Shown here: piece by piece, positions 3,160 to 21,847 of the stretch | How the letters are laid out: the number at the start of each line of letters is the position of its first letter | Position numbering within the stretch: the first letter of the stretch is position 1 | IMG/VR virus record: IMGVR_UViG_3300017818_000127 | Location: 1 to 21,847 of that record | Strand: one strand, 5' to 3' | DNA from: a virus | DNA: 21,847 bases | Program-made: the position numbers and the translations under genes | The notes under the pieces: generated by a model | Databases searched by the model: none | What the model was told of the DNA's origin: nothing | The model's input: the letters and a program-made list of their open reading frames with translations, nothing else

Positions 3160-6100
3160 TTAAAAAGTTCCTCCGTCAAGTGTTGTGACTGTTACATCAC
3201 CACTTGTAACTGTAAAGTTATTTATGTTAAATGAAGCAACACCAATGTTCGTGTTGTTCGCTAATTCACCAGCAATCAATATCTGATTGTTGCTAGCTGT
3301 TATATCAATTCCTTCACCTTCGGCAAAGTTTAAGGTTTCTCCAAGTTGAATTACATCTGTATTCCCCACTGGAGCTGATATTTGAATACCACCTAATTGT
3401 AAATCTGTAATTTCGTCATCAACGTATTTCTTAGTCGCTGCATCTTGAGCGTTAATTGGGTCGAGAACGTTTGTAATATGAGAAGAACTAACATCAACTT
3501 CGTATGCTAGTGATTCAAGTGTAATAGCACTCGGTGAATATATTTTATCCGAGAACAGTTTCATATCATTACCGATTTCGACAAAGTTGTCTACATCGAT
3601 TTCTAATATTCTACTTCCACTACCGTTTAAATCTATGAGATAGTTTGTATTGTTTCTATCTATAAATCTATTTGCTTGAACATCACCTGAAACTTCAAAT
3701 AGAGATGTTTGTTTATTCCATACCGCACCAAATCCTTGAGCGTTATTTAAGAATCCGATAACACTACCGGCTGAATACATGTAGTTATCTACAATTCTTA
3801 CTAGTGAACTTGATTGTTGATAACCAATATGAATGTTCTTAATTTGTGAATCACCAGCAGGGTCAATGAAGAAATTAGTATTCGCTGAGTCTAAGAATCT
3901 TGGTGCTGCTATATCTCCAGTTGCGGTATCACCAGCAACTTCTAAATATCTCGTATCAAGTGTTGGGTATGCAGTAGAGAAGTCAATAGTTGTTGCGATA
4001 TCAACGTTTGAGTTATGAACAACAGTATTTGAACCAAGAACACTACCAGTTAAATTAATTACGAAGTCATTTGTTCTGAAATTAATCTTATCGTTTGCAT
4101 CATCACCTTCTACGTTAATACCTAACTCAACATTACTCCTCATCATTTCACCGACAAGGTCGTGTACAGTTTCTGTAAAGTCAGGAATCGCGTTCGCTTG
4201 TAATTCTACTGGAATGTCTGTTGCGAATGAAATACGTCCTTGTTCATCAATACGAATACGAGGAGTAAATCCATCGTTACCATATAGACCTGCAGTAACA
4301 CCGGTGTCTTCCATTCCAATTTCAAATTCATTATTTGCTAGAGCTGTATTTGCACCTAATTCTAAACCTGTACCAATGTAAACTCTAGGTGAATCGAGTA
4401 AGTCAATTACTCCTGTATTAGCACCATCTGTAATGTCTAAGTTTGAACTGAAATTATCATTAATAAATCTTAAATTAACTGCATCAGAAGGGTTGACAGG
4501 GTCCGCTAAACCTGTTATAATAGTATTACTGACATCAATATTACCAGATACAGTAAATGTTAAATCTGTATTTGCTGGGGTAGTAATATCACCATTTGCA
4601 GTAATCTTAAATCTTTCATTCCCAGCGGTGAAGAATTGTAATTCATCATTATCAGCATTAGGACTTGATTCAGCAATAATTTTTGTATCTTGGTCAACGT
4701 CGATTACTGAACCTGCGAGACCTGCCCAATTACTTCCATCATATCCTTCAAAGCGTGCATCATCAGTATTATAACGTAACATACCAGTTGCAGCTGAAGG
4801 TCTATCACTTGTATTACCAACCGGAAGTGTGATTGCTCCTGTTTCTGCAAATGTAATTACACCTGAGTCACTCTTGACTTGTGATACGAAGATTCGATTC
4901 CAGTTTTTATTTAATGAACCAATTGTATATGTTAAGTGGTCATTTGGAACTAAGTCAGATGTGAAGTCTGCAACAACATTAATTGTATCTACATCAGCAT
5001 CACCAATTCTTATATTACCACCAAGTGTAAGATTACCAGTGATGTCTGTATCACCAGTAACTGTAAATGTAGAACCATCCCAACGTAAATCGTTACTATC
5101 AGTTATTTCACCATCTACACCTGCAAACAATACTCTGTTTTGTGTTAGGTCAGTAACATTTAAACTATCAACTTCTAAAGAACCAGTAAGGTCAGTGTCA
5201 CCAATGATTGTTGTATCACCAACAACATTTAATGTTCCTTGAATGTCTGTATTTCCAGCAATGTTAGTATCACCAGTTTGCCAGTCAACTGTAAACTTAT
5301 TAAGACCATCACCATACTGGAAATCACCATCAGGTGCGAGTTTATATCTTAATGTTCCACCAGTAAAGAATTTAAGTTCGTCATTATCTGCGCCTGGTGA
5401 ATCTTCTGCAGTAATTTTTGTATCTTGGTCAACATCAATAACTCCACCAAGACCTTTCCATGCAGTACCATCATATCCTTCGAATTGTTGGTCACTGATA
5501 TTAAAACGAATCATACCGCGAACGGCGGTAGGTCTTTGAGCTGTTGTACCATCTGGAATGGTGATTGCTCCAGTAGAATCAAAGGTTACTAATCCTCTGA
5601 ATGTAGCATCACCTGAATTATAATCAATAATTAATTTATTGAGACTTGAACCAAAGTATAAATCACCATCTGCTTCAAGACGCATGACCTCTGTATTTGC
5701 AGTAAAGAATTGCAATTGGTCATTGTCAGCGCCAGGTGAAGATTCAGCAACAATTCTAGTATCTTGGTCAACATCAACTACACCACCTAATCCTGTCCAT
5801 GCTATACCGTTATATGCTTCAAATCTTGAATCAGTCGTATTATAACGAATCATTCCTTGGTCTGGAGTTGGTCTATCACTTGTTGCACCAACAGGGATAA
5901 TAAATCCACCAGAACTATTGACATCTACTACATTTGATGATATAATTAAGTTATCCGACAACCCATTAATAGTATCGAAGGTTTGAGTATAATCTACCTC
6001 AAATTCTGTACCTAAAGGACCGGTAAGAGTTAAACCTCTTCCATCAGTAAAGGTTCCATGTCCTTGGAATTGTTTGTATATAATATCGTCAGTATTTAAC

Positions 6101-7185
6101 GCAAATGTTTCTGCATCATTAACTGTTGCAACCCAACCAGTTTGGCCGTTAAGAGTACCATCAACTACGAATACGAAAGAACCAGGTATTTCGGCCAGAG
6201 TAAGTCCATACTCTGAGGTTTCATCGTTATACCGATTTCTCTGGAAAATCCAATCATCAGCTAAGGCGCCAACTTGTATTAACTCGTAACGGCCATTCTG
6301 TACTGGGTTTGTTTGGTCTTTGACTAAAAGTCCATCACCAAGTTCCCAATCTGTAACCCCGTCAATATTGATTGTTGAGGCGGGAGATAAAGAAATTGTG
6401 TCTGAATAAGAAGTATTACCAGTTGTATATGTACCACCTAAGTCTGCAGTCGATGCTGCTAGAACTGTTTGACGATTCAACATCGCAATTTGAACATTAT
6501 CTACATAACGTTTGTTTGCGACATCTTCTGGGTCTGTAGGGTCTCCAACTGTTCCTAATTCTTGTTCTAAATAATTGACTGTAACAGCATCTTGTGGGAA
6601 TAAAGGATTTTTAAGATTAGATATTCTGTGGTCGGTGACGTTAATAACATCATCAGCTTCGCCAGGAACTAATCGAATATCATCTAAACCTAATATTCCG
6701 TCTTGTGTTAAAGTAAGTTCACCAACATTAAAATTACTTAAACCTACGATTTCATTTGTAGATTCACCAATTGTAAGTGATGTATTACCTAGTGTGAAGT
6801 CATTTGCTTGAATGACTGTGCCGTTAGCAGTAAAGTTTAAAGAAGTTAAACTTGTATTATAAAAGGATGTAACATGACCGAATTGGTCGATGTCAATATT
6901 TCTTGAAATTGTTAATACATCATTATTAGTACTTACTTCGTTAGATGTATTTGCGTGAGAAACGACGACATTAGAAAGTTCTGTGTCTGTTTCAGGAGTA
7001 ATGATTATGCCTGGGCCAGCATCAATATCCTGTACGTATGCTCCAATTGTATCGATACCAAGAACAACGGAATCTGGAACGATTACCGGTTTTCTTTCTC
7101 CTGGTGCTACGATACTCGTTTGAGTATCTTGTTTAGGTACCGCTCGAATACTTTTCGAGGACTTGACCTTAACCTTTATACTCAC
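3160..7185 (-). CDS. Phage tail fibre-like structural protein, 1341 aa, GTG start
   Basis: Probable fibre or adhesin of the virion. Four motifs of the type N.[IL].[DN].DA..[KN].[YF][VIL] mark phage-fibre segment borders: about 191-207, 214-231, 894-910 and 1240-1257 (last one DPINAQDAATKKYVDDEI). A segment near 230-375 with VLAASTADLGGTY and GDGLLVKDQ has the look of a known fibre insert domain. Three repeats of RP[TS]...GM[IL]R[YF]N..D.[RQ]FE.Y[DN]G..W.GL followed by VDQDT[RK]I.AE.SP.ADND.L.FFT occupy about 429-535, 540-645 and 783-870. Paired 'RF.D..NTN[FY].ID..G' units lie near 1096-1111 and 1173-1188. I see no cysteine. The start is GTG at 7185-7183, and the frame overlaps the stop of the 111-aa gene as GTGA. 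A strong GGAGG lies 4 bases upstream, a short but usable spacing, and no better start is near. It is translationally coupled to the gene before it. Confidence 0.85.
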   Translation of the reverse strand: MSIKVKVKSSKSIRAVPKQDTQTSIVAPGERKPVIVPDSVVLGIDTIGAYVQDIDAGPGIIITPETDTELSNVVVSHANTSNEVSTNNDVLTISRNIDIDQFGHVTSFYNTSLTSLNFTANGTVIQANDFTLGNTSLTIGESTNEIVGLSNFNVGELTLTQDGILGLDDIRLVPGEADDVINVTDHRISNLKNPLFPQDAVTVNYLEQELGTVGDPTDPEDVANKRYVDNVQIAMLNRQTVLAASTADLGGTYTTGNTSYSDTISLSPASTINIDGVTDWELGDGLLVKDQTNPVQNGRYELIQVGALADDWIFQRNRYNDETSEYGLTLAEIPGSFVFVVDGTLNGQTGWVATVNDAETFALNTDDIIYKQFQGHGTFTDGRGLTLTGPLGTEFEVDYTQTFDTINGLSDNLIISSNVVDVNSSGGFIIPVGATSDRPTPDQGMIRYNTTDSRFEAYNGIAWTGLGGVVDVDQDTRIVAESSPGADNDQLQFFTANTEVMRLEADGDLYFGSSLNKLIIDYNSGDATFRGLVTFDSTGAITIPDGTTAQRPTAVRGMIRFNISDQQFEGYDGTAWKGLGGVIDVDQDTKITAEDSPGADNDELKFFTGGTLRYKLAPDGDFQYGDGLNKFTVDWQTGDTNIAGNTDIQGTLNVVGDTTIIGDTDLTGSLEVDSLNVTDLTQNRVLFAGVDGEITDSNDLRWDGSTFTVTGDTDITGNLTLGGNIRIGDADVDTINVVADFTSDLVPNDHLTYTIGSLNKNWNRIFVSQVKSDSGVITFAETGAITLPVGNTSDRPSAATGMLRYNTDDARFEGYDGSNWAGLAGSVIDVDQDTKIIAESSPNADNDELQFFTAGNERFKITANGDITTPANTDLTFTVSGNIDVSNTIITGLADPVNPSDAVNLRFINDNFSSNLDITDGANTGVIDLLDSPRVYIGTGLELGANTALANNEFEIGMEDTGVTAGLYGNDGFTPRIRIDEQGRISFATDIPVELQANAIPDFTETVHDLVGEMMRSNVELGINVEGDDANDKINFRTNDFVINLTGSVLGSNTVVHNSNVDIATTIDFSTAYPTLDTRYLEVAGDTATGDIAAPRFLDSANTNFFIDPAGDSQIKNIHIGYQQSSSLVRIVDNYMYSAGSVIGFLNNAQGFGAVWNKQTSLFEVSGDVQANRFIDRNNTNYLIDLNGSGSRILEIDVDNFVEIGNDMKLFSDKIYSPSAITLESLAYEVDVSSSHITNVLDPINAQDAATKKYVDDEITDLQLGGIQISAPVGNTDVIQLGETLNFAEGEGIDITASNNQILIAGELANNTNIGVASFNINNFTVTSGDVTVTTLDGGTF
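4576..5901 (-). repeat. Three RPT..GMIRYN / VDQDTKI modules in the 1341-aa fibre
   Basis: Copies lie at about 5901-5581, 5568-5251 and 4839-4576. The first two are nearly back to back; the third is separated by about 135 residues of T[ILV]GDTDITG-type short strands. Each contains a conserved Trp in 'W.GL' and the block SPGADND (SPNADND in the third). They are the most conserved internal repeats of this protein. Confidence 0.85.
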
Positions 7186-7633: not shown

Positions 7634-10600
7634 TTATTTTGACTTTAATTCGTCAATTTGTCTTTGTTGTTCTTTTATTGCTTCAACTAATAATGCTGTT
7701 ATATTTCCATAAGATACTGACTTAAATCCATCAGCATTATCTCTTACGACTTCTGGAAGTATACTCTCAACCTCTTGTGCAATGAGACCAATCTCATCTC
7801 TTTCATTATCAATCTTATTATATGAAACACCTCTTAATGCTTTGACTTTATCTAAAGCATCTTCTAATGTATTAACATTAATCTTTAATCTTTCGTCTGA
7901 GTTAGTTGTAACGTTACCACCAGCTGTGAAGTCACCCGTTCCTGTATCAAACGTGAATCTTACAACTGTACCTTCTCTAATGAACCAATCATGTCCAGAA
8001 TTAAGGTCGGTATACATTGCTGTGTTATTTGCGTAGAAATCAACATCACTTGATGTACCGAAGATTAAAGGAATATCATCATTAAATCTTAAGTAGTTAG
8101 CTGACTGTACGTTAGCAGATGTACCATCATAACCTGAACCACCCGATGGCCATGTAGTTCTAGTAACACCACCTAGTGTTATACCACCATCTACATAGAA
8201 GTTTTCTACGAGAACTGTTTCTGAGTTTAAGTTATATGTAAAGTTAGTATCACCTGAACCACCTGCATATAAATCAGGAGTTGTTGCAGCATATAGTGTT
8301 CTTACACCAGAACCAGGCTCAATAAATGTTGGATAGAAAGTACCTGTTTGTAGTGCGTTACTTTGTTCCCTAATTGAAGGTGCGTTAATACCAGAAGCTG
8401 AACCTGCAGGACCTTGTGAACCTTGGAAACCTAATGTTCCTTGAACACCCTGTAGACCTTGGATACCACCTCCACCAGTTCCACCATCAATACCTTGGAA
8501 TCCTCTAAATCCTTGAGTACCTTGATATCCATTGAAACCTTGAGCACCTGTGTCACCAGTGAAACCTTGAGAAGAAGCACCACCGGTAAATCCTTGAATA
8601 CCTTGGATACCTCTATAACCTTGAGGACCTCTTGTTCCTTGAGGACCTATTGGGCCTAACGGACCTTGAATTCCATTTCCACTTAAACCATCAGTACCTT
8701 GGAAACCACGAGGACCTTGTGGACCACCAGAACCTGAACCACTTACACCTTGATTACCTTGGAATCCTCTATAACCTTGAGTACCTTGTTCACCCTGAAC
8801 ACCGCCTCCACCTGTTCCACCATCGGCACCCTGTTCACCTTGAGCACCTTGATAACCTCTATATCCTTGTAATCCTGTTCCAGCATCACCTGTAGTACCT
8901 TGAATACCCTGTGGACCAGTAGGACCTTGAACACCGCCACCACCGTCTCCACCAACATTTCCTTGAACACCTTGATAACCTCTATAACCTTGGATACCTG
9001 GCGCTCCTGTTCCTGGAGGACCTTGTACACCTTGATAACCTTGGAAACCTTGAATACCCTGAACACCTGTACCCGTTGTTCCATCAATACCTTGAGGACC
9101 TTGAATACCTTGTGTACCTGTACCAGAGGCACCTTGGATGCCTGCACCCGTAGGACCCTGAACACCTTGTAGACCTTGCGCACCCTGGACTCCAAATACA
9201 CCCTGTGCACCAATACCACTTAAACCTTGAGTTCCTTGAGGACCTTGAGCACCAGGAGCACCTGCTCCACCGACACCCTGTGTACCTTGAACACCTTGAG
9301 TTCCTCCTGAACCGTCAGAACCCTGAACACCCTGAATACCTTGAGCACCTGCTGGACCTTGGAATCCTCCAGCACCTACACCCGCGATACCTTGTTGACC
9401 TATTAAACCTTGAACACCCTGAATACCTTGAGCACCAGTTCCGCCTGGTCCTTGGAATCCACCAAATCCTTGAGTACCAGTAGAACCCTGAATACCTTGG
9501 ATACCTTGAGACCCAGCTGCACCATCTGCTCCATCAGAACCTTGGAAACCAGATGTTCCTTGTAAACCTTGGATACCTTGAGCACCCGCACCAGCCGGTC
9601 CTTGGAATCCATAATCACCTTGAACACCTTGAGTACCTTGAACACCTTGTGGTCCAAGCGCACCTGTCGCACCAGCATCACCTGTTCTTGCGAAGGTAAT
9701 CATTACATCGTCACCACCTTGGAATGTATATCCTGCGTTGGAAACGTGTGCTACATCAATAGCAAAATAACCTGTTGTTTCTGTTAAACCTGAAATTGTA
9801 AATAAGATAAAGTTTTGTGGAGAACTCTTAAGAGTAATCTTAACGTGACCTTTAACTGGAGATGTTGAATCATCAATTGTTCTTAAGAAAGGTTGAATGT
9901 CGATAAAGTTATCATCTCTATCATCGATGAATATTAATGTTGCACTTGACTGTGTAGCACTATTCAGTTTAACCCAACCGGCTCCACCTGGGTCACCAGC
10001 TAATGTTCCTGAATTAAATGTATAATCAAATGTTACACCACCAAATGAACCATCGGCACCTTGAATACCTCCAGAACCTTGAACACCCTGAACACCTTGA
10101 GCACCCGAACCTGTAGGACCTTGAACACCTTGAGGACCAATTCCACCAACCGCACCTTGGATACCTGCGGGACCTCTTGGAATAAATGTAATAAGTGTTT
10201 CAGGACCGTGTGTTTGATTAACTGCAGTTTCCCAGTTAGTAACATTACCATCAACATAGTTAACATCAAAATAACCGTAATTCTTAGATACACCGTCCCA
10301 TGTCCAATCTGTAATTTCATATACTAACCAGTGATGCCCTCCTGGACCTCCACTTGCACCACCTGCTGCTCTTTGAATTTTTAGATAACCTTTGACTGCA
10401 CCTGGTTGAGCATCGATGAAATCTAAGAAGTCATCAATTTCTGTAGTGTATTGGTCATCTGGAATATCGTCTAATGTAATTAATGTTGCTAATGTTGGGT
10501 TAGCATTATTAAATTTGAAATTGTTTGTGCCTGGGTCTGTACCACCAATTGTGTTATTAACAAAGTTCCATTGGAAAGTTAAACCGCCATATTCGCCTTG

Positions 10601-12937
10601 TTCACCTTGTAATCCTTGAAGCCCTTGTAAACCTTGACCACCTTGAACACCCTGAATACCTTGAGCACCGGTTGCACCACTGTCACCTTGTAATCCGACA
10701 TCACCTTGGATACCAAATGTTCCTTGAACACCTTGAATACCTTGTGCACCAGTGTTACCAACATCACCTTGGAAACCTCTATAACCTTGAAGACCATCAG
10801 TACCTTGTACACCCTGAACACCTTGGAGACCTAAATCACCTTGGAAGCCTCTAAATCCTTGAGTACCTTGAACACCTTGAGTACCTTGGTCACCAGTTCT
10901 TGAGAATGATATACGAACATCTAAACCATTAGATAATGAAGATGCTCCACTTAATCTTGTACAATCAACTACCCAATAACCAGAACCATTCGTAATTTCG
11001 TCAATTCTAAATGTAATGTGGTTTGTAGTATCTGCACCATTTGTAATTTTGAAATAACCTTTAACACCTGAACTTACTGCATCTAAGTCAACCATTAATC
11101 CATCCATAACGTTGACGCCATTATCGTCTTCGTCATCGATGTACATTTGAGTTGCTGAAGCTAAGTTTGTATCATCAAACCTAATAATACCAGTGCCTGG
11201 GTCAGATGCTGTTGTGTTATTACTGTATGTGTAATCGTATGTGATACCACCAAAGTCACCAGTTGTTCCTTGAACACCCTGGATACCAACATCACCCTGA
11301 ATACCAGTTGTTCCTTGAATACCTTGGAGACCTACGTCACCTTGAACACCTGTATTACCTTGGATACCTATTGTACCTTGTGGTCCTCTAAATCCTTGTA
11401 AACCTTGTGGGCCCTGTAATCCTTGAACGCCTTGAATACCTCTTGGACCAATAGGACCTTGAATACCTTCATCACCAACAATACTAAATGCTACTAATAA
11501 TGGGTTAAGTGTCCAAACTCCGTTTCCACCATTATATTCTGTAAAGTCTTCTCTTAATGCGTTACCACCTTGGAATGTAACATTAAATTGCCAGTAACCT
11601 GTTTGGTCTGTTGCGTTTTGAATTGTGAAGATAACGTAATCATCTGGGTTTCCACGTTTGGTAATTTTCATTACCGCTTTATCAGTGGATGTTTGACTTG
11701 AAATTGTTGTATATAGTGCGTCTAAGTTAACACCGTATATTGCTTCATCGTCAATCCACATTGTGTCAACTGTTGAGAAATTAGATGTATTAGAGAAACC
11801 AGTATCATTAAAGATAATATTACCAGTGCCTGGGTCTGCTTGAGAAGTATTCCAATCTAATCTGTATTCAACTACGTGACCAGCATCATCACCATTAAAT
11901 CCTTGTAACCCTTGTAAACCTACATCACCTTGAATACCAGTTGTTCCTTGAACGCCTTGAACTCCTTGGATGCCTTGAATACCTAAGTCACCTTGGATAC
12001 CAGTAATACCTTGAACACCTTGAGGTCCTCTGAAACCTTGAACACCTTGGATACCTAAGTCACCTTGAACACCTTGATGGCCCTGTACGCCTTGCATACC
12101 TTGGAAACCACGGAATCCTCTTTCACCTTGAATACCTTCGTTACCTAAAGGACCTTGTAAACCTTGTGGTCCAATTACACCCTGTAAACCTTGAACTCCG
12201 CGGAATGAACCGATATTAACCCAGCTCGTTCCATTATAAATCCAAAGTTCATCGTCAGCTTCGTCAATAACACCTTCACCTGTATTTGGAGTAGGAAATG
12301 CTGTATTTAAAGTTGCTTGAGGGTCACCACCTGAATCTACATCTGCGACTGAACCAATGATTGTAAAACCAGGACCATAATCACCTTGTAGACCTTGAGC
12401 ACCTGTTGTACCTTGGATACCTTGCTGACCTTGACCTACTTGAGTGACAGGGTCAGATGCAAATACCATAATAGCAAATGCACTTGCAGAGGAAGGAGTT
12501 GTTGCATTACCATTGCTGTCATAGAATGAAGCTTCAAATCCATTAACTGTTTTACTTTGAATTGATACTAAACGACCATCATCATTGAGTTCACCATCAG
12601 TGACAACAGTATAATCAGTATCAGGTTGAGCAGTATCAAAGGCAAAGTCCATCGTACCATTAACTGCATCCCAATTCGAAGATGAAATTCCGGTACCTGT
12701 AATATTACCTGTTCCATCAACTCGGATAAACGCAAAAGGAAGAATAGCATCGACTGTGGTACCACCGCCACCTAATAATTCAATCCAACTTGTCCCGTCG
12801 GAGTAATAAACTTTATCGTTATCAGCATAGACCACCGCGCCTTCATAGACGGCTGGGTCAAGTGTAATAGGGAATGCTTGAGGTTCACCAAAACCTATTA
12901 GCTGACTTTTTCCTGTTAGTGTTCCAAAATTGGACAT
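7634..12937 (-). CDS. Collagen-like phage fibre with globular inserts and C-terminal S74 chaperone, 1767 aa
   Basis: Probable trimeric fibre or adhesin of the virion. Order: N-terminal beta region (1-168) with a '[10 protein letters not shown]' motif, likely for attachment; Gly-X-Y segments at about 169-189, 247-351, 489-562, 683-783, 923-963 and 1087-1512; a small '[12 protein letters not shown]' domain (190-244); four related globular inserts (352-488, 563-682, 784-922, 964-1086); a beta region (1513-1670); and a Peptidase_S74 domain (about 1676-1767). The Gly-X-Y triplets mostly carry Gln in the Y position (GIQGVQG) and few Pro, as in phage collagen-like proteins. The S74 domain shows SDERLK with Ser1680 and Lys1685 in the known catalytic spacing, GLIAQEVE and a final coiled coil ending IDELKSK. 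In this family the domain assembles the trimer and then cuts itself off at that serine. Only one cysteine (659) is seen. GGAG lies 10 bases before the ATG and a late promoter box 32 bases before it; a hairpin terminator follows. Confidence 0.9.
7637..7912 (-). other. Peptidase_S74 intramolecular chaperone domain
   Basis: Residues about 1676-1767 of the collagen-like fibre. Landmarks are TTNSDERLK (the Ser codon is at 7900-7898), [51 protein letters not shown] and a helical end. Known members (endosialidase tailspikes, phage neck appendages, T5 L-shaped fibre) fold as trimers and self-cleave at the conserved serine with the help of the lysine five residues on. Both residues are present here, so cleavage is expected, leaving a mature chain of about 1679 residues (inference). 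Confidence 0.85.
8402..9679 (-). repeat. Longest collagen-like segment (about 426 residues), degenerate 9-bp DNA repeat
   Basis: Residues about 1087-1512. At DNA level the plus strand shows continuous variations on CCTTGAACA / CCTTGGATA in a 9-base rhythm, the complement of codons for Gly-X-Gln. Arg is placed in recurring G[FY]RG[FY]QG units. Unlike the earlier segments it contains many two-residue Gly-X interruptions ([32 protein letters not shown]). Other collagen-like segments lie at 12199-11885, 11473-11252, 10891-10589 and 10171-10049. Confidence 0.9.
9680..11884 (-). repeat. Four related globular insert domains within the collagen-like fibre
   Basis: Copies at about 11884-11474, 11251-10892, 10588-10172 and 10048-9680, separated by collagen segments. 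They share a start [TYF].[WY].[FWY]..... followed by DPG......FN or F.D, then SAT..[IY]IDD..D, a helix-like stretch, VKG..KI, an [IF].[IF]..[IT].....GY[WF]..[DN]V core, and an end [IV].F...GD.G leading back into Gly-X-Y. They are diverged in sequence, so the duplications are old. Their role is unknown; in position they are bulges on a triple-helical rod. Confidence 0.8.
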
Positions 12938-12981: not shown

Positions 12982-13407
12982 TTAAACAACGTCATCTTCT
13001 TCAGATTGACCTAATGTGAATGATAATGTAGCATGACATGCTAAGTCAGTGTCTGCTATAATTTCTAATGTATCACCACTCTTTAAAAACTGGCCATTCA
13101 GAGGAATTGCTGTTGTCTGATAACCGCCTATAGGCATGTTTCTCAATATGTAAAATTCTGCGTTAACGTCATCACGGTGTGTTCTGACATCAATGTTCAC
13201 AGTGTTTGCGATTGTATTACACAAAATCAATGGTGAAATAACTTCACCAACGCCCGGCTCAATAGTTGTTGAACCACCAAATACTAGTTCAGGAACCTCG
13301 TATTGAGGTACTTCAATAAGAACTTGCCAGTTAGTGGATACAACCTTATTGACGGCAACTGGTTTAGCGTCAGGTGCCTGAGAAGTTGTAATTGTTGTTA
13401 TAGACAT
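12982..13407 (-). CDS. Small probable virion structural protein, 141 aa
   Basis: The product starts MSITTITTSQAPDAKPVAVN and contains TNWQVLIEVP, SPLILCNTIANTVNIDVRTH, EFYILRNMPIGG and a final TLSFTLGQSEEDDVV. It is strand-rich, without signal peptide or membrane segment, with two cysteines (within ILCN and LACH) and an acidic C-terminus. The spacing of strands suggests a single beta-sandwich domain. I recall similar small proteins beside large structural genes in marine T4-like phages but cannot assign a named family. It lies 16 bases after the giant protein gene and 44 before the collagen-like fibre, on the same strand. AGGAT about 8 bases before the ATG is a modest ribosome binding site. 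Likely role: connector or decoration protein of the fibre or baseplate assembly (inference from position). Confidence 0.7.
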   Translation of the reverse strand: MSITTITTSQAPDAKPVAVNKVVSTNWQVLIEVPQYEVPELVFGGSTTIEPGVGEVISPLILCNTIANTVNIDVRTHRDDVNAEFYILRNMPIGGYQTTAIPLNGQFLKSGDTLEIIADTDLACHATLSFTLGQSEEDDVV

Positions 13408-13423
13408 TTTTCTTTATCCTATT

Positions 13424-16400
13424 TTATAATGCTGCTCTACTGTTTGAAGCTCTTCTTGCGAGTTTTCTTACAGATGATGTAAATGGTCGACCTTCGATTC
13501 GACCCGTTCTACCATTAATTCTTAGACCTCTTGCGAAGTATTGGTTATTCAATTCATCCGCACCCGACCATCTGATTCTACCACCATCTTCACTTAGTAC
13601 CGAAGCCACCGCTGATATAGCAGAACCTAAGTTTCTAAAGTTTAGAGGTAGAGCATTTCTGTTAACACCTGCTGATGCACCATTAAACTGGTGAGCAATG
13701 GATTCAACCAAGGAACCAAATACTAATGTTTCTGGTCTTAGAATATTATCTTTCAGACAGTCATTAAATAAACCTTCAACCATTAAGTCGTGTTGTGAGT
13801 TAGGTGATAGATTATTAACAATATAATCTCTCATTCTATCCCAAGCACCAGTAAAGGCGTCAAGTAATGATGTGTCGTTAGTCTGGTCTAATACCCAAGT
13901 TGTTCCGTTCCAATAATATATATCTCCCGCAAAATGACTTACTGCATAGTTATCTGCAACAATATATGCGTGATTTGGTTTCTGTCCTGTGATAGCAGCT
14001 AGGTCAGATAGCTGTGATACACTTCCTTGGTATTTGTATGCTGTATTAGATGGATTAAATACTGGGAATGTATGCTGACCTTTCTGGTCGAAGAATGCTG
14101 CGGTAAATGACCTTGTAGATTTCTGAGACCCTGCCACGTTCCCGTACACTGGTACGCCCGCGGAAGCATCTTCATATCTAAAGTCATTTGTAATTGCTTC
14201 TAATAAGTTGTAACCATCTCTTCTTGTTAAGTTAATGTCAATGTAATCATAAGTTGTATTAACAAATCTTACGACATCAAATGCAAGGTCGAGTTTATTC
14301 TGTTCGAGGATGAACTGAGCACTTGTAAATGTATCATCAACATATGTATAATCTGGTTCTTCCTTAGCAGGTAAGTACTTAGTATCTTTAAAGAATTGTG
14401 TCTTGTAGAACATGTCTGCAAGTCCTTTAACTTTCTTAGACTCTACATCAGTACCAACTTCTCCAAGAACTGTTTGATTTGGATATTTACCAAGTACGAT
14501 ATCTTTACATATTACACCAAGTTGCTTATAAGCTTTTGCTGTTGGAATACGTTGGTCTTCAGGAACTCTAAACTGATTATTCCAGAAGTAGAAATCTGCA
14601 TTCCATCTTGATGCGATGTTACCACCATAGTTCAAGTCATAACTGAATGCATCGAGTAAGTATCCAATATCTCTTCTACACTTAGCTCTGTTATAATCAA
14701 GTACATCAAACTCTTGTCTAATGTAGTAGATTAATTCATCAGCAAGTGATTCAGTATTATCTTCAATCTGTTGAGCTGCACCTTGAATACCTGTGTCAAC
14801 CCATGCAATTGTAGGTTCAACAGGAAGTGGTAATGAATCTAAGTTGTCAGCACGTATTGCGTCTTCAACGATTCCTATTAAGTCACTAACCCTTCCACCT
14901 TCAATCGCTGTTGCAGGTGTTCCAAGTAAATCTTGAGTTGTCGATGTGTATGTTGTATTAGCAACACTGTTATCTTCTTGTACGACCGCATCAAGAACTG
15001 TTCCTAAGTAATTGTATATGTCTGCAGTTTGAGTTCTTGTGTCTGCAGGTAATACGCTGATACCATTTTCAAAATAAATCTTAGTTGCTGTTAGTGTAGC
15101 GATGTTTCCATCATACTGAACATCATGAGAGATAGCGTCTAGTAAGTATCCAATATCTCTTCTACACTTAGCTTCTGGGAAACTCAATCCATTATGAACA
15201 TTTGAAATGTAATTCAGAACAGAAGTTGCTAAACCAGTACTTGCATCTTCGATTAATTCTTTCGAATCAATGAAAGGTTGTGCCTGCCATGTTTGTAGTG
15301 GGTCTACTCTATTCGGGAAGTCTACATAAGAACCCTTATCGACTACATTAGAAATAATATTGACTAGGTTTTTAGCTCTAATTGCAATCTCTGGGTCACC
15401 AGCAATTTGTGACATATCTTGCTTGTAGATTTGGTTTTCAATGTGGAGAATAGCGTTAGGTAAAGCACTTACAAATGTATGAGCACCAGCGTATCCTTTG
15501 GCATATCCAGCATTTACTGTAAATGTCTGGTTAGTTACCGCGGTAATTCTTAAAGGTTGTCTATGATTTGGGTCAATATCTGGTCTTGGATGTGATATTT
15601 CAACACTACCACCACAACTAAATGTTATACCCTCATCTTCAACGATGACGTAATCGTCTGTTGTTAATCCGTGTGGAGCTTTTGTTGTTACAACCATGAT
15701 TCCAGTTACTGGGTCATAAGTTGCTGTTTGAACTCCGAATGTTTGTTTAATCCAACGTGATTGGTCTACTTCCATTCTTCTAACAACATGTTCTACAACA
15801 TTAGCGACATGAGTAAATGCTTCTTTACTTGCAGCTCTTTGTTCTTTAGGCAAGGTATTTACTGCATTATCAAAGTAGAGATATGCGTTATTTAATGTAG
15901 CTGCGTTACCACCGTATTGAATGTCATGTGATACTCCGTCAAGGATATATCCAACATCTCTTCTACATTTTGCTTCGCTGTATGGAAGAATGTCAAAGTA
16001 TCTTGCAAGATAAGCAAGGATTCCGTCTTGAATTGCTTCTTTACTTGCGTCTAATTCTACGTAAGATGCGAGTTCATCAGTGTAGAATGTTGTATTTGGT
16101 TCTTCAACATCTGGGTTAACTTCTAATCCGTTATCAGAAATTGCTGTTGCAACCAATCCAAATAGACCTTCAATCTTATCTGCAAGTGGTGTACCTACTG
16201 ACCCAGCTGAGAAGTTCTGTGATTCCGCATTTCCTGTTGTTGGAGTAACTGCGGTGTCGAGTACAACACTTCTTGCAACAGTACCTATATGATTAAAGGC
16301 TGCCGCTGTAGGTGCTCTCTGGTCTTCTGGTAAAACACTGATTGCATTTTCGAAGTAAAGTTTTGTATCATTAATTGAAGCACTATTACCACCATGCATT

Positions 16401-19400
16401 GCATCAAAGATAACAGCATCAATTAAGTATCCTAAATCTCTTTCACACTTAGCTGAATCATAAACTAGTGAACCATAATTCTGTGCAATCCAAGCTGTGA
16501 TTTCAGCTTGTAAGAATGCTTTGTTATTAAGTAATTGTTCTCTTGCATTAATACCGTTATTACCCGCTTGAGAAACACTACCATAAGTGATTGCATCAGC
16601 ATTAGTAGAACCATTCTTCATGATGTCAAGGATTTCATTAAATGCTGTCATTGCTCTTTGTTTTCCAACGCTAGATGTTACGTTGTTAACTGCAATGTCT
16701 CTTGTGTATTCAATTGCTTTAATTGTTTCTGAAAGTTGTTCTGTAATAACCGCATCAGCACCAGTTGTTCCAATTCTATATGCTAATCCATTGAACACTG
16801 CGTTAAAGTTAGAGTTTGTAAGTACATCACGTTTAACCGCATCAATAAGAATTCCAACATCACGCTTACACTTATCTCCATCGAATGTGTAGTAATCTTT
16901 CTTCAACTTAGCAATGACGTCTTCAGCAATAAAGTCTTTGTTTCTTTGTATTTGAACACGTGCTGCTGTTCTGTTTGAATCAACTGTTGGACTCACTAGT
17001 GTAGTTGTTAAGTTCTCATCTGAATCATCATCAACTACATTAGCAACAATTTCAATCAGGTCGTGAATTGCTGTACCAGTTGCTGCATCAGCCGGAGTAC
17101 CTGAAGTATCTTGTGAAGGTACATTGTTTGCTGAAGGTGTAATCGCAATTTCTTGTACTACATTACTTGCAACATCTGCTAAATGTCTAAATGCTTCCAT
17201 TGTTGGAATGCGTTGTTCAATAGGTAATATGTTTGTTAGTGTACGTAAACCTGAAACGTTTGCTGTCTTGTATTCTTCGGCAGTATCTTTAAACTGACCA
17301 AGTACTTCGAGAGGTAATACGTTAACACTTCTTAATTGTTCGTAATCTGCTGATTGTTCATCGTCAAGTCTAAAGTAGTATTTAGCAGCTTCGATAACAT
17401 TTGCATTACCACCATAGATAATGTCTTTAGAAGCAGCATCAACAATAAGACCAACGTCTCTTCTACACTTAGCTTTTTCGTATGGTAAACCTTTCCATTC
17501 TCTTTGTACATATCCGATAACATCGATTGAAAGAGGTTCTGTTTGACCATCAATCTTATTAACAGCATCTTCATAAGTTGCTTCAATTGTTGGTTCAATA
17601 TATTCAGGTAACCAATCAAGTGATTCGTTTCTTATTGTATCTGTAACGATATTCACTAAGTCTTTAACATCATTTGCAATGGCGATTCCAACATCAGTTA
17701 ATGATTGGTCTTGAGAAGCAGCATTTCCAGATGTAGGTGTGACTGCTTGGTCTCTTACAACTTGATATGCTACATCAGCAATATGTTGCCATGCTTTCGC
17801 TGTTGGTATCTTTTGGTCACCAGGTAGAACTGCAATCGCATTTTCAAAGTATAATCTTGCAAAGTTGATAGAAGCCGAGTTAGAACCGTGTTGAATATCC
17901 CAAGATAATGCATCAACTAGATAACCTGTATCTCTTTCACAATCAGCAACATCGTAATTTAAGTTAGGGAATTCTTGAGCAATATAAGCTGTAATTTCAG
18001 CTTGGATAAATGCTCTGTTATTTTGTAATGCATTCCTTGCTTCGATTGTTTGAGCACTTACACCATTAGCACCAAATGCTAGTGTGTTTGCATTTGCAGA
18101 ACCGTTAGTGATAATGTCTATAATTTCGTCAAATGCTGCGTTTGCTCTTGCTAATGAGTTACCAGAAAGTTCAGCTGCAATTTCTGATTTAAGATAATTG
18201 ATTGAACCAGTTGTTTGTGGTAATTGGTCATTAATAACTTTGTTAGCACCGACAGTACCGATTCTGTATCCTAATCCATTGAATACCGCATTATAGTTTG
18301 CACCTGTTGCAACGTCACGTCTTACAGCATCTAAAATAAATCCTGTATCTCTTGAACATTTAGCACCATCGAATACAAAGTAATTATTATCAAGATAAGC
18401 CATTACTTCATCTTGAATCATATTACGGTTAGCTTGTAATTGTTGAGCGGCATAGAATCCGTCTGAATTTGTTGTAACCTTAGCAACCGCTTCGTTTGAA
18501 ACTCTTACAAATGTATGTGTACCACCTGAACCTGCTCCAACATCGACAGTAATATCATCACCATTCACTGCAGTAATTTGCATTGGTGTATTGAAGTTAC
18601 CATCTCCTTTTCTTGGATATGAATGTTCAGTAGCATCTCCATCTTGAGAACATGTAAATGTGAAACTGTAAGGTGCGAATTCGATAAAGTCATCAACTAA
18701 TAAGTCGTGGCCTGGAATTGTAACTACACTTTCACCAGTTCCTGGGTTGTATGTTGCAGTTGTTGGTGTATAATATTTTAAGTACTTAGATGGGTCAGTC
18801 CAAATAATTGGGTCACCCTCGATAGCACCAACGTCAGCTCTAACGAATGTATGAGCACCACCAGAACCTACACCAACATTCATTGTGATTGTTGTCGCAG
18901 TTACTCCTGTTAATTTAACTGGAGTTTTATATGCAGGGTGGTGAGTTGCTGGATAAGCATGCTCAACTGTATTTGAATCTTGTGCACATGTAAATACGAT
19001 ACTTTCAGGTTTCAACTCAACATAATCACCTACTTCAAATGAGTGATTACCTATTGTTGCTTCAAATACTCCAGTTGCTGGGTCGTATGTAGCAGTTGAA
19101 GGTGTGAAAGATGAAATGTAATCAGATGCTTTAACACTGTTAGCAGTTGCTGATACAAATGTATGTGCTGTACCATTTTCGTATCCACCAACATTTACTT
19201 CAATCGTTGTTGATGTTACTTTGTTAATTAATACTGGTGTTCTGTAAGCAGGGTCACCTTTTCTTGGGTAAGAATGTTGTGTTGCATTACCGTCTAATGC
19301 ACATGTAAATGTAACACTCTCATCGTCAAGTACGATGTTTTGACCAGGTTCGAAATCATGAGCACCAATTGATAATACTAATTTACCAGATGTTGGGTCA

Positions 19401-21847
19401 TAAGTTGTTCCTGCTGCAGGTGTATATGATTTACCATTACTGTTTGTAATATCAATTAATTGTCTGAATGATTCATTTGACCTATGAATACTTCCAAGGT
19501 CTGTGATTGTGTTGTTAGCAACTAATTGCTTCAACTCTGTCATTGAACCAACGGTTTCTGGTCTTTCATTTAACCAAGTATCTTCTGCAGAAGTTTTAGA
19601 CCTGTATGCTATACCTGCTTGTTTAGCATTATAGTTTGAACCTGTAATAATATCTCTTTCAACTGCAGGTAAGATGTGTTTAAGAACATCTCTCTCACAT
19701 TTTTCTGAATCATATCTAAAGTAGTTATAATCAATATAACCAAGCATTAAGTCTTGAATAAATTCTTTGTTTTCTTGTAATTGAATTCTAGCATTACGCT
19801 TACTTGCTGTGATTGATGTATCATCAGAGAAGTAAATCTTAGAATTCGCTAAAATAACTGAGTTAACATCAGCTGATACGAATGTATGTGGTGCAACATA
19901 AGCTGAAGGACCAACTAACACTGTAATCGAATTAGATGTGACAGAGTCAATCTCTACTGGTGTTTTGTATGTTGGGTCATGTGGTCTTGGGTGTGATAAT
20001 TGTGTAACTGTACCATCACCTTCACATGAGAATGTTATACTCTCTGGTTTGAAGAATACTCTATCACCTTTGGATAGACCATGCTTACTTCCAAGAGTTA
20101 ACGTCATATAACCAGTTGCTGCATCATATGTTCCGCCTGTCGGTGTCCATGTGTATGTAGTAGCTGCTTGGATTGCGTCCTTATATGCACTTACGAATGT
20201 ATGTACTTTATTGACACCTGCCGGTTTTGCATCAACCGTTATAGTTGTTTGTGTTATCGATACAATATCAAATTTCTGATTCCACAATGGGTCACTTGGA
20301 CGTGGATGTGAAATATTGATTGGATTTCCTGTTCCATCTTCTGGACATGAGAATGTCATTCCATTCTCTTTAATAAAGATACCATCTCCAACTTTAAATG
20401 CATGGTCACCTATGGTAACTTCCATTAAACCACTTACGTGGTCATAAGAAGCATCTGTAGGTGTATAAGAAGCAGGTTCAGGTAATAACTTAATTCCATT
20501 ACCTTCTAATTGACCGATGATTTCGTCAAATGCTTCATCAGCTCTTACGTGACCAATTTCTGTATTTGCATCGATGAGTTCGTTTGTTTTATCTTTAAGA
20601 TGACGATATGCTGCAATTGTTTCATTACGTTGTTTATCAACTACTTTAGCAGCTGCATTCATGTAATAAGCATTACCCGCAGTTACTGCATTATAGTTTG
20701 TTCCTAATAACATATCATACTTAACAGCTGGAAGAATATAATCAGTTGTATCTCTTCTACATGCTACACTATCATAAGAGAAGAACTCATCATTATTATC
20801 AATCCAATCTGTTAATTCATCTTGAATAAATGACCTGTTGTCTTGTATTAACTCTCTAGCTGCTGTTCTTTCAGGATTATAAATGTCGTCAACCCATGTA
20901 ATTGGGTTCATGTTTTCTTCACCATATTGAAGAACATTAAAGAGTTCTTGCATTGAAGTATTTGCTCTATTAATAATATTTGTTGAGCCTTCGAAAATAC
21001 CTTCAATCTGGTCTTGTAAATATTCGTTTGCTGCGACTGTTTGTTCTAATTGGTCACCTACAACTTTTTGTGAGATAGGTGAACGATATGTAATACCAGC
21101 TAATCTACCCCAGTAGTTAGAATCTAATGCAACGTCATAACCTAATCCATCAACAATAATTCTTGTATCTCTTTCACATTTACCAGCATCGTATCCTGTG
21201 TAATTTAATCCACCGTTCGCTGTATTTGATGTGAGATAGTCAACCATATCATCGACGATATCGTCATAAGCATTCTCAATAGTGTCAGCAAATACTGTGT
21301 TACCGAATATAGTTGCATTGGTTGCTTTAGGTGCGAAGAACTGAGTTGTACCCTTAGCTCTCATTGAGATGTCACCGAACTGAGTACCTGAGTTGTTCAA
21401 TGTCATTTGTCCACCGTTCAATGCGTAGAATGCGCATCGTACGAAGATGGATAGAGAACCGATACCGTTTACACCAGCACCATCCCTAGCAACATAACCC
21501 ATACCGTTTTGAGAACGAGGTGTGAAACCAAAACATAATACGTAAGTATATAATGAATCTGGGTCTAATACTCTTCTATCTGCAAGTAGACATCCACCAC
21601 CTCTTCCAACTAATCTGTTAGGGAAGTCGTCGATACCAATTACGTCGATTGTAGCAGTACCACCAGATTCAGATGTAATAGTATCCCCAACCGCAAAACC
21701 TTTGTTGTTCTTTAAGTTTCTTACGTGAATCTTATTATCAGAAGCAAGTTCAGAAACGTAAGATACGAAACCAACTGCACCAGATGAGAATGTAATCTCA
21801 TCATCAACCGCAAATCCAGAAACACTTGAAACATTACTTAATGTAAA
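13424..21847 (-). CDS. Giant modular virion structural protein, at least 2807 aa, 5' end beyond the right edge
   Basis: The frame is open from the stop (TAA, 13426-13424) to the window edge: 2807 codons with no start needed. The ATG at 21502-21500 is internal, since 115 more in-frame codons precede it and match the protein's style (GFAVGDTITSESGGTATIDV). Residues are counted from the right edge. Residues 1-180 are beta-rich, with a region (SIFVRCAFYALNGGQMTLNN, then FGDISMRAKG) reminiscent of phage beta-helix or beta-solenoid parts. Residues about 190-2560 carry twelve helical modules centred on C-x-R-D and six beta modules centred on TF[TS]C. The C-terminus (about 2640-2807) is a separate domain with FGSLVESIAHQFNGASAGVN and a basic tail ending SVRKLARRASNSRAAL. 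No signal peptide is visible in this part. I recall such modules in very large proteins of marine phages; no function is established to my knowledge. Likely a long fibre, baseplate arm or adhesin. Confidence 0.85.
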   Translation of the reverse strand, partial: FTLSNVSSVSGFAVDDEITFSSGAVGFVSYVSELASDNKIHVRNLKNNKGFAVGDTITSESGGTATIDVIGIDDFPNRLVGRGGGCLLADRRVLDPDSLYTYVLCFGFTPRSQNGMGYVARDGAGVNGIGSLSIFVRCAFYALNGGQMTLNNSGTQFGDISMRAKGTTQFFAPKATNATIFGNTVFADTIENAYDDIVDDMVDYLTSNTANGGLNYTGYDAGKCERDTRIIVDGLGYDVALDSNYWGRLAGITYRSPISQKVVGDQLEQTVAANEYLQDQIEGIFEGSTNIINRANTSMQELFNVLQYGEENMNPITWVDDIYNPERTAARELIQDNRSFIQDELTDWIDNNDEFFSYDSVACRRDTTDYILPAVKYDMLLGTNYNAVTAGNAYYMNAAAKVVDKQRNETIAAYRHLKDKTNELIDANTEIGHVRADEAFDEIIGQLEGNGIKLLPEPASYTPTDASYDHVSGLMEVTIGDHAFKVGDGIFIKENGMTFSCPEDGTGNPINISHPRPSDPLWNQKFDIVSITQTTITVDAKPAGVNKVHTFVSAYKDAIQAATTYTWTPTGGTYDAATGYMTLTLGSKHGLSKGDRVFFKPESITFSCEGDGTVTQLSHPRPHDPTYKTPVEIDSVTSNSITVLVGPSAYVAPHTFVSADVNSVILANSKIYFSDDTSITASKRNARIQLQENKEFIQDLMLGYIDYNYFRYDSEKCERDVLKHILPAVERDIITGSNYNAKQAGIAYRSKTSAEDTWLNERPETVGSMTELKQLVANNTITDLGSIHRSNESFRQLIDITNSNGKSYTPAAGTTYDPTSGKLVLSIGAHDFEPGQNIVLDDESVTFTCALDGNATQHSYPRKGDPAYRTPVLINKVTSTTIEVNVGGYENGTAHTFVSATANSVKASDYISSFTPSTATYDPATGVFEATIGNHSFEVGDYVELKPESIVFTCAQDSNTVEHAYPATHHPAYKTPVKLTGVTATTITMNVGVGSGGAHTFVRADVGAIEGDPIIWTDPSKYLKYYTPTTATYNPGTGESVVTIPGHDLLVDDFIEFAPYSFTFTCSQDGDATEHSYPRKGDGNFNTPMQITAVNGDDITVDVGAGSGGTHTFVRVSNEAVAKVTTNSDGFYAAQQLQANRNMIQDEVMAYLDNNYFVFDGAKCSRDTGFILDAVRRDVATGANYNAVFNGLGYRIGTVGANKVINDQLPQTTGSINYLKSEIAAELSGNSLARANAAFDEIIDIITNGSANANTLAFGANGVSAQTIEARNALQNNRAFIQAEITAYIAQEFPNLNYDVADCERDTGYLVDALSWDIQHGSNSASINFARLYFENAIAVLPGDQKIPTAKAWQHIADVAYQVVRDQAVTPTSGNAASQDQSLTDVGIAIANDVKDLVNIVTDTIRNESLDWLPEYIEPTIEATYEDAVNKIDGQTEPLSIDVIGYVQREWKGLPYEKAKCRRDVGLIVDAASKDIIYGGNANVIEAAKYYFRLDDEQSADYEQLRSVNVLPLEVLGQFKDTAEEYKTANVSGLRTLTNILPIEQRIPTMEAFRHLADVASNVVQEIAITPSANNVPSQDTSGTPADAATGTAIHDLIEIVANVVDDDSDENLTTTLVSPTVDSNRTAARVQIQRNKDFIAEDVIAKLKKDYYTFDGDKCKRDVGILIDAVKRDVLTNSNFNAVFNGLAYRIGTTGADAVITEQLSETIKAIEYTRDIAVNNVTSSVGKQRAMTAFNEILDIMKNGSTNADAITYGSVSQAGNNGINAREQLLNNKAFLQAEITAWIAQNYGSLVYDSAKCERDLGYLIDAVIFDAMHGGNSASINDTKLYFENAISVLPEDQRAPTAAAFNHIGTVARSVVLDTAVTPTTGNAESQNFSAGSVGTPLADKIEGLFGLVATAISDNGLEVNPDVEEPNTTFYTDELASYVELDASKEAIQDGILAYLARYFDILPYSEAKCRRDVGYILDGVSHDIQYGGNAATLNNAYLYFDNAVNTLPKEQRAASKEAFTHVANVVEHVVRRMEVDQSRWIKQTFGVQTATYDPVTGIMVVTTKAPHGLTTDDYVIVEDEGITFSCGGSVEISHPRPDIDPNHRQPLRITAVTNQTFTVNAGYAKGYAGAHTFVSALPNAILHIENQIYKQDMSQIAGDPEIAIRAKNLVNIISNVVDKGSYVDFPNRVDPLQTWQAQPFIDSKELIEDASTGLATSVLNYISNVHNGLSFPEAKCRRDIGYLLDAISHDVQYDGNIATLTATKIYFENGISVLPADTRTQTADIYNYLGTVLDAVVQEDNSVANTTYTSTTQDLLGTPATAIEGGRVSDLIGIVEDAIRADNLDSLPLPVEPTIAWVDTGIQGAAQQIEDNTESLADELIYYIRQEFDVLDYNRAKCRRDIGYLLDAFSYDLNYGGNIASRWNADFYFWNNQFRVPEDQRIPTAKAYKQLGVICKDIVLGKYPNQTVLGEVGTDVESKKVKGLADMFYKTQFFKDTKYLPAKEEPDYTYVDDTFTSAQFILEQNKLDLAFDVVRFVNTTYDYIDINLTRRDGYNLLEAITNDFRYEDASAGVPVYGNVAGSQKSTRSFTAAFFDQKGQHTFPVFNPSNTAYKYQGSVSQLSDLAAITGQKPNHAYIVADNYAVSHFAGDIYYWNGTTWVLDQTNDTSLLDAFTGAWDRMRDYIVNNLSPNSQHDLMVEGLFNDCLKDNILRPETLVFGSLVESIAHQFNGASAGVNRNALPLNFRNLGSAISAVASVLSEDGGRIRWSGADELNNQYFARGLRINGRTGRIEGRPFTSSVRKLARRASNSRAAL
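15462..15740 (-). repeat. Isolated sixth beta module (TFSC...HTFVSA) of the giant protein
   Basis: It has the same plan as the five modules at 18500-20466: TATYDPVTG, then HGL..DDYV, ITFSC (Cys codon 15616-15614), SHPRP, DP, P[LV].I..V and AHTFVSA. It sits between CxRD modules 9 and 10, far from the others, with a shorter acidic loop after the cysteine. Confidence 0.85.
15780..18460 (-). repeat. Two tandem copies of a three-module block (I-II-II), about 1.49 kb each
   Basis: CxRD modules 4-5-6 (about 18460-16971) and 7-8-9 (about 16970-15780) correspond one to one. Matching cysteine codons are 1488, 1491+3 and 1500 bases apart (4 to 7, 5 to 8, 6 to 9). Shared marks beyond the module core are NAVFNGL.YRIGT.GA in 4 and 7, then NG[ST].[NA].A and a run Q[AT]EITA[YW]IAQ, then A.TPT.GNA.SQ after modules 5 and 8. 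This indicates an ancestral duplication of a whole block, not only of single modules. Confidence 0.8.
18500..20466 (-). repeat. Five beta modules (TF[TS]C ... HTFV) of the giant protein
   Basis: Modules at about 20466-20184, 20150-19870, 19427-19145, 19107-18836 and 18771-18500. Each is about 92-95 residues: [YWF]TP....YD..[TS]G, [LI][GP].H.[FL]..[GD]D, [IV].F[TS]C..D[GS], [HY].[YH]P[RA]..[DH]P, P[VM].[IL]..V....I.V.[VA], then HTFV[SR]A or HTFV[SR]V. The cysteine codons are at 20347-20345, 20026-20024, 19303-19301, 18988-18986 and 18652-18650. Modules occur as a pair (between CxRD 2 and 3) and a triplet (between 3 and 4). The fold is likely a beta-sandwich or beta-barrel (inference). Confidence 0.85.

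Follow-up and report, generated by a model that had tools for sequence, protein, structure and literature searches.

Phycobiliprotein-like domains in a probable giant virion protein of uncultured T4-like marine phages

In uncultured T4-like marine phages, represented here by a viral window of 21,847 nucleotides, a single gene very probably encodes a giant virion protein, the backbone of which is made of eleven phycobiliprotein-fold domains and a degenerate twelfth, with optional beta inserts. Within the virion, the protein is most likely a tail-fibre or baseplate appendage. The open-access literature, which was the literature searched (subscription journals and preprints lay outside it), yielded no account of virion proteins with phycobiliprotein-like domains.

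Architecture of the giant protein

The minus-strand frame at positions 13424-21847 is a single uninterrupted open reading frame (ORF) of 2807 codons plus a stop, open at the window edge and so truncated at its 5' end. The same protein is encoded at 100% identity on a second contig (L004), where it has a start codon, begins MSKISELGSITGANTRSEDLFVIVNLVQGDDGTKNITRKEL and is complete at 3388 amino acids, indicating that the window lacks the first 581 residues. On that contig the missing part comprises a short conserved head, pentapeptide-like repeats (matched by Pfam Pentapeptide_4 at 1.6e-12) and most of a conserved domain, the C-terminal part of which (full-length residues 582-764) falls in the window at 21299-21847 on the minus strand, as do all features below. 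We regard this domain, delimited by alignment A2, as beta-helix-like with low confidence: the AlphaFold2 model of the N-terminal part is poor (pLDDT 54) and its Foldseek matches, to beta-solenoids and tailspikes, are weak and of low TM-score, a hint only. An earlier note on this DNA had held the protein to be unlike beta fibres, but with a pentapeptide-like beta-solenoid and a predicted beta-helix at its full-length N-terminus it is not simply so.

Downstream of this domain, profile HMMs built from the repeats resolve helical modules bearing a CxRD motif and beta modules bearing a TFTC motif in the order H1 H2 [A B] H3 [C D E] H4-H9 [F] H10 H11, exactly as the earlier note had read them along the 2807-residue frame. 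The eleven CxRD modules are matched at E-values of 1e-33 to 1e-46 and occupy positions 20987-21298 (module 1), 20558-20881 (2), 19511-19816 (3), 18161-18472 (4), 17738-18061 (5), 17138-17590 (6, which carries an insertion), 16673-16987 (7), 16244-16561 (8), 15767-16081 (9), 14963-15271 (10) and 14486-14797 (11). The six beta modules, all clear matches (E 1e-33 to 3e-45), lie at 20171-20467 (A), 19856-20149 (B), 19133-19426 (C), 18821-19108 (D), 18485-18772 (E) and 15449-15739 (F). Twelve helical modules had been counted alongside these six; eleven stand, but the twelfth (14168-14341) is degenerate and is matched only at E 0.025, with Thr in place of Cys in the consensus of alignment A1 (LTRRD) and Arg and Asp kept. 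The protein closes with a near-invariant C-terminal domain (13427-14167), delimited by the alignment of homologues and ending in PFTSSVRKLARRASNSRA. A Pfam search with the whole protein gave no match up to E = 1, and phmmer against the PDB returned a phycocyanin alpha chain as its sole match (E 0.84), the significance of which was noticed in hindsight.

These matches in the window are far beyond chance, and the HMMs find the same module plan in 36 distinct full-length homologues. Exactly 11 strong CxRD modules are present in 34 of these, and the remaining two, from near-identical loci (L062 and L063), have 19, the extra copies being inserted mid-protein. Beta modules vary from 2 to 11 copies per homologue and sit at a few linkers only, namely after modules 2, 3, 5, 6, 9 and 10. 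The regular alternation of helical and beta modules that had been supposed does not hold; the helical number and order are constant, and the beta modules are optional insertions gained or lost at those linkers. A tree of 283 CxRD modules places 266 of them nearest to the module that holds the same position in another phage, and only 8 nearest to a module of their own protein, which identifies the helical string as an old, fixed, position-orthologous scaffold. Both ends of the protein are likewise nearly invariant among homologues (alignments A1 and A2). Positions 5 and 8 group together in the module tree (support 0.96), as do 4 and 7 more weakly, suggesting an ancient block duplication inside the giant gene. 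The L062/L063 variant is 4177 amino acids long and combines its 19 CxRD modules with only 2 beta modules; the extra CxRD copies, about eight in number and diverged, lie between positions 7 and 9.

No Pfam family was found for the beta module, for which matches were scattered (FCCH at 0.029 in 1 of 35 modules), and the PDB held no convincing relative of it. Alignment A4 of the beta modules contains six invariant positions including two His and one Cys (H22, C41 and H86), which makes a metal site conceivable.

Fold of the helical module

The helical module resembles the phycobiliprotein (bilin-binding globin) fold, an assignment on which profile search, profile-profile alignment, AlphaFold2 with Foldseek, and a reverse search with phycocyanin converge. 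When a profile of 50 modules (alignment A3) was compared with all PDB sequences, phycobiliproteins made up nearly all of the top 60 matches (best 8e-4). The aligned stretch, reading ..ARxLxxNxxxI....YP....KCxRDxGY.. in the modules and ..ARALTNNAQSLI....FPY....KCARDIGY.. in the phycobiliprotein, extends from helix B up to and including the bilin site (Cys84-x-Arg86-Asp87). Pfam PF00502 (Phycobilisome) matches 9 of the 50 modules taken singly (best 2.1e-6); its curated cut-off is passed by giant ORFs of 4 of 17 records, one of these being a contig of the same clade as the window (G007), and PF00502 has no match in G001, a contig identical to the window. In the opposite direction, a tblastn search of 50,697 phage records with a 66-amino-acid piece of CpcA placed giant cyanophage tail proteins at the top (S-CAM1, S-PM2 and others), that of S-CAM1 bearing CKRD modules, and in five cyanobacterial plasmids the A3 profile picks out cpcA, cpcB and cpeA genes.

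Profile-profile alignment of the A3 modules with eight genuine phycobiliproteins encoded on cyanobacterial plasmids (hhalign) gave a probability of 93.9, E 1.6e-7 and a score of 46.5 over 97 columns. The controls were a reversed profile (probability 0.1), 100 column shuffles (best score 17.4) and the beta module (probability 0.04); ten modules of the window alone reached a probability of 58.8. With the KCxRD columns masked, the score of 22.1 remained above every shuffle and the register was unchanged, but the match was weak (probability 6.8), indicating that most of the sequence signal resides in the motif. A globin-type helical fold was also seen in an AlphaFold2 model of modules 9, F, 10 and 11, which is of moderate to mediocre confidence (pLDDT 64, pTM 0.30). 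Searched against the PDB with Foldseek, this model matched phycoerythrin and phycocyanin subunits first, with probability 1.00, TMt mostly 0.55-0.73 and about 149 aligned columns, the best E-value being 0.023 and none falling below 0.001. The earlier note knew of no described function or structure for this architecture; for the helical module, matching as it does a characterised fold, that claim falls as regards structure, but the match does not extend to its role. One could still suppose an unrelated helical bundle in which CxRD is coincidental and there is no homology to phycobiliproteins, as the weaker signal after masking and the only moderate confidence of the model would allow; the profile, fold and reverse phycocyanin searches, however, agree on both family and register, and we consider such a coincidence improbable.

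In addition to the fold, the modules have in common with phycobiliproteins (PF00502) and the bilin biosynthesis-associated globins (BBAGs) the CXRD motif with its preceding Lys, the Asn of helix B and the Gly after helix E. They differ in being tandem domains inside a 3388-amino-acid protein rather than the product of a stand-alone globin gene, and only some of the phage relatives pass the PF00502 cut-off. The residues of phycobiliprotein alpha-beta assembly are not kept either: Arg93, invariant in the eight true phycobiliproteins, is replaced at the corresponding position (Cys+9) by Asp (81%) or Pro (16%).

Genomic setting and cyanophage relatives

The giant gene stands among baseplate and tail genes of a T4-like phage. 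Upstream are genes for a gp8-like wedge protein, a VrlC/DUF4815 protein and an S74-chaperone protein. Downstream is an ORF for a 141-amino-acid protein (12982-13407), which holds this adjacent place at the loci of relatives too, and then a collagen-repeat tail fibre with an S74 chaperone end identified by domain searches (7634-12937). Two more long fibre-like proteins are encoded further downstream on the same strand (3160-7185 and 315-3125), and in the first of them a domain with matches to several PHROGs recurs about three times. A T4-type gp23 is present in five of the seven long clade contigs, and that of a 169.7-kb contig (G002) is closest to those of Methylophilales phage Melnitz and Sinorhizobium phage phiM12 (66-67%). 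The host of the clade is probably not a cyanobacterium; psbA was absent from the seven clade contigs searched, and two homologous contigs (L241 and L242) occur in one Rhodobacteraceae genome bin, which is too weak for a host assignment. These two contigs encode different homologues and have bin coverages of 5.7 and 88, and are probably phage contigs caught in the bin.

CxRD modules also occur in two kinds of giant proteins of cultured cyanophages, annotated 'short tail fibre' proteins and wedge proteins in the gp7 position. The former, with related tail and virion proteins (PHROG 5342, 701, 4527 and 18802; for example S-PM2d218, S-RSM4_214 and S-WAM2_027), have CxRD modules and often beta modules in common with the clade and are encoded in virion gene clusters, but they show only ~25-30% identity, have other terminal domains and fewer CxRD modules, and often lie beside cpeT. 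The N- and C-terminal parts of the clade protein had no match in the 50,697 phage records. The gp7-position giants (P-SSM4 gp7, S-RIM2 and S-SM1 SSM1_102, also known as T4-GC969) likewise contain CxRD and beta modules, but as inserts with partly degenerate motifs, and P-SSM4 has mostly beta modules. In S-SM1 SSM1_102 there are three clear CxRD-module matches, reading CEDD, CKTD and CQRD, and two clear beta modules, and T4-GC969 was detected by mass spectrometry in purified S-SM1 virions (PMC3037559). Two very large S-PM2 proteins, S-PM2d088 and S-PM2d218, mutated during co-evolution with the host (PMC9910659); they correspond in size, and S-PM2d218 also in position, to the two module-bearing ORFs of S-PM2. 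No CxRD module was found in S-CREM2, which has a 4971-amino-acid long tail fibre in its virion proteome.

By analogy with these relatives, a virion role for the giant protein is well supported by its gene context and by the one homologue detected by proteomics. The suggestion that it is a virion component has thus gained from homologues among baseplate-wedge and tail-fibre genes and from a module-bearing homologue in purified virions, and gene order and the PHROG tail and virion families leave a very long segmented virion protein, encoded beside ordinary fibres, as the best reading. In such a protein the helical string would form a segmented rod that keeps the two end domains apart, the near-invariant terminal domains capping both ends, while the beta modules would serve as side domains that vary. 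One end of the protein would be attached to the baseplate, and the protein would take part in adsorption.

Pigmented or pigment-free tails

Phycobiliproteins frequently use CXRD, in which the Cys holds the bilin and Arg and Asp are hydrogen-bond partners, and BBAG globins with this motif (BBAG-1 and BBAG-3) take up bilins without a lyase (PMC10151467). The same attachment motif recurs in the phage modules, the Cys of each of which might covalently bind a linear tetrapyrrole (phycoerythrobilin, phycocyanobilin or biliverdin). The resulting pigmented rod could sense light or protect the virion, and the cyanophage CpeT would be its lyase or chaperone. Alternatively, the phycobiliprotein-type globin fold may have been recruited purely as a stackable helical spacer free of chromophore, with Cys, Arg and Asp kept for packing and salt bridges.

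Conservation of the motif bears on both readings. Among 491 distinct clade modules, Cys is kept in 100%, Arg in 99%, Asp in 100% and the preceding Lys in 77%, Cys being the most conserved column, and 25 cyanophage modules keep Cys and Asp in 100% and Arg in 76%; both sets of percentages are upper bounds because the HMM selects for the motif. A positional count less affected by this selection finds C..D kept in all 11 modules of each of 42 full-length proteins, which include some duplicates. In module 12, Cys is lost in the sequences checked and Arg-Asp is kept. The fold thus seems to tolerate loss of the Cys, which favours a bilin as the reason for its constancy elsewhere; the same retention of Arg and Asp without Cys also fits a structural role, as does the tolerance of cyanophage modules to Arg changes, seen in the S-SM1 motifs. 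A mere spacer, however, does not readily explain why Cys should be the least variable residue, nor why cpeT tracks the modules in isolates.

In the 22 isolates examined, cpeT, a homologue of T-type bilin lyases, and CxRD modules are jointly present in 16 and jointly absent in 6. The giant CxRD gene directly follows cpeT in 12 of the 16, separated from it by no more than tRNAs and one to three small genes, and in Sf-CH3 pcyA lies between the two. These observations favour pigment, but the isolates are related and were chosen partly for having one trait rather than blindly sampled, so the association may be one of descent, and in S-SM1 and P-HM2 cpeT is not adjacent to the CxRD gene. The Sf-CH3 locus (L222, 9001-18525) has cpeT, a 2OG oxygenase gene, pcyA and the giant CxRD virion gene in succession on the same strand.

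Bilin genes are sparse in the clade itself. The 169.7-kb contig encodes an adjacent heme oxygenase and bilin reductase, genes with which BBAGs are associated and which speak for a pigmented tail, but such a pair is present in only one of the seven clade contigs of at least 100 kb, 11 clade contigs are without cpeT, and the hosts of the clade may not make phycobilins; most clade contigs have no bilin genes, as expected of a chromophore-free scaffold. Moreover, among 22 contigs that encode a related bilin reductase, a single one carries modules, most of the other 21 being fragments, and the idea that ho1-pcyX phages generally carry such tails was rejected on this count. On the 169.7-kb contig the heme oxygenase and the ferredoxin-dependent bilin reductase form a ho1-pcyX-like pair (L126, G002:C1:37908-39149) on the same contig as the giant tail gene.

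Adsorption offers a further line of evidence. S-PM2 is presumably among the marine cyanomyoviruses with light-dependent adsorption. According to a review, several marine cyanomyoviruses adsorb in this manner (PMC2984593), and darkness prevents adsorption of P-HM2 but not infection by P-SSP7 (PMC7112961). The former carries modules and the latter does not, in keeping with a pigmented tail, although this contrast sets one myovirus against one podovirus. Because of the sampling bias, the location of cpeT and the missing cpeT, ho1 and reductase genes, we consider bilin binding doubtful, if possible, and lean towards the chromophore-free rod as the likelier of the two.

The finding provides a fold and a candidate function for a protein family that ranks among the largest still unexplained in marine viruses. 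Two questions thereby become accessible to experiment: the purpose of phage bilin genes, both cpeT and the ho1 with pcyX found in phages of non-cyanobacteria, and the reason for the failure of some cyanomyoviruses to adsorb without light. More tentatively still, the tails of many marine T4-like phages may be biliproteins, with covalent bilins on their tandem phycobiliprotein-like domains, in which case the phage-encoded CpeT of cyanophages, and sometimes PcyA, would serve the virion and not the host antenna, and the chromophores would give light control or photoprotection. If true, bilins on phage tails would be a physical basis for light-dependent adsorption.
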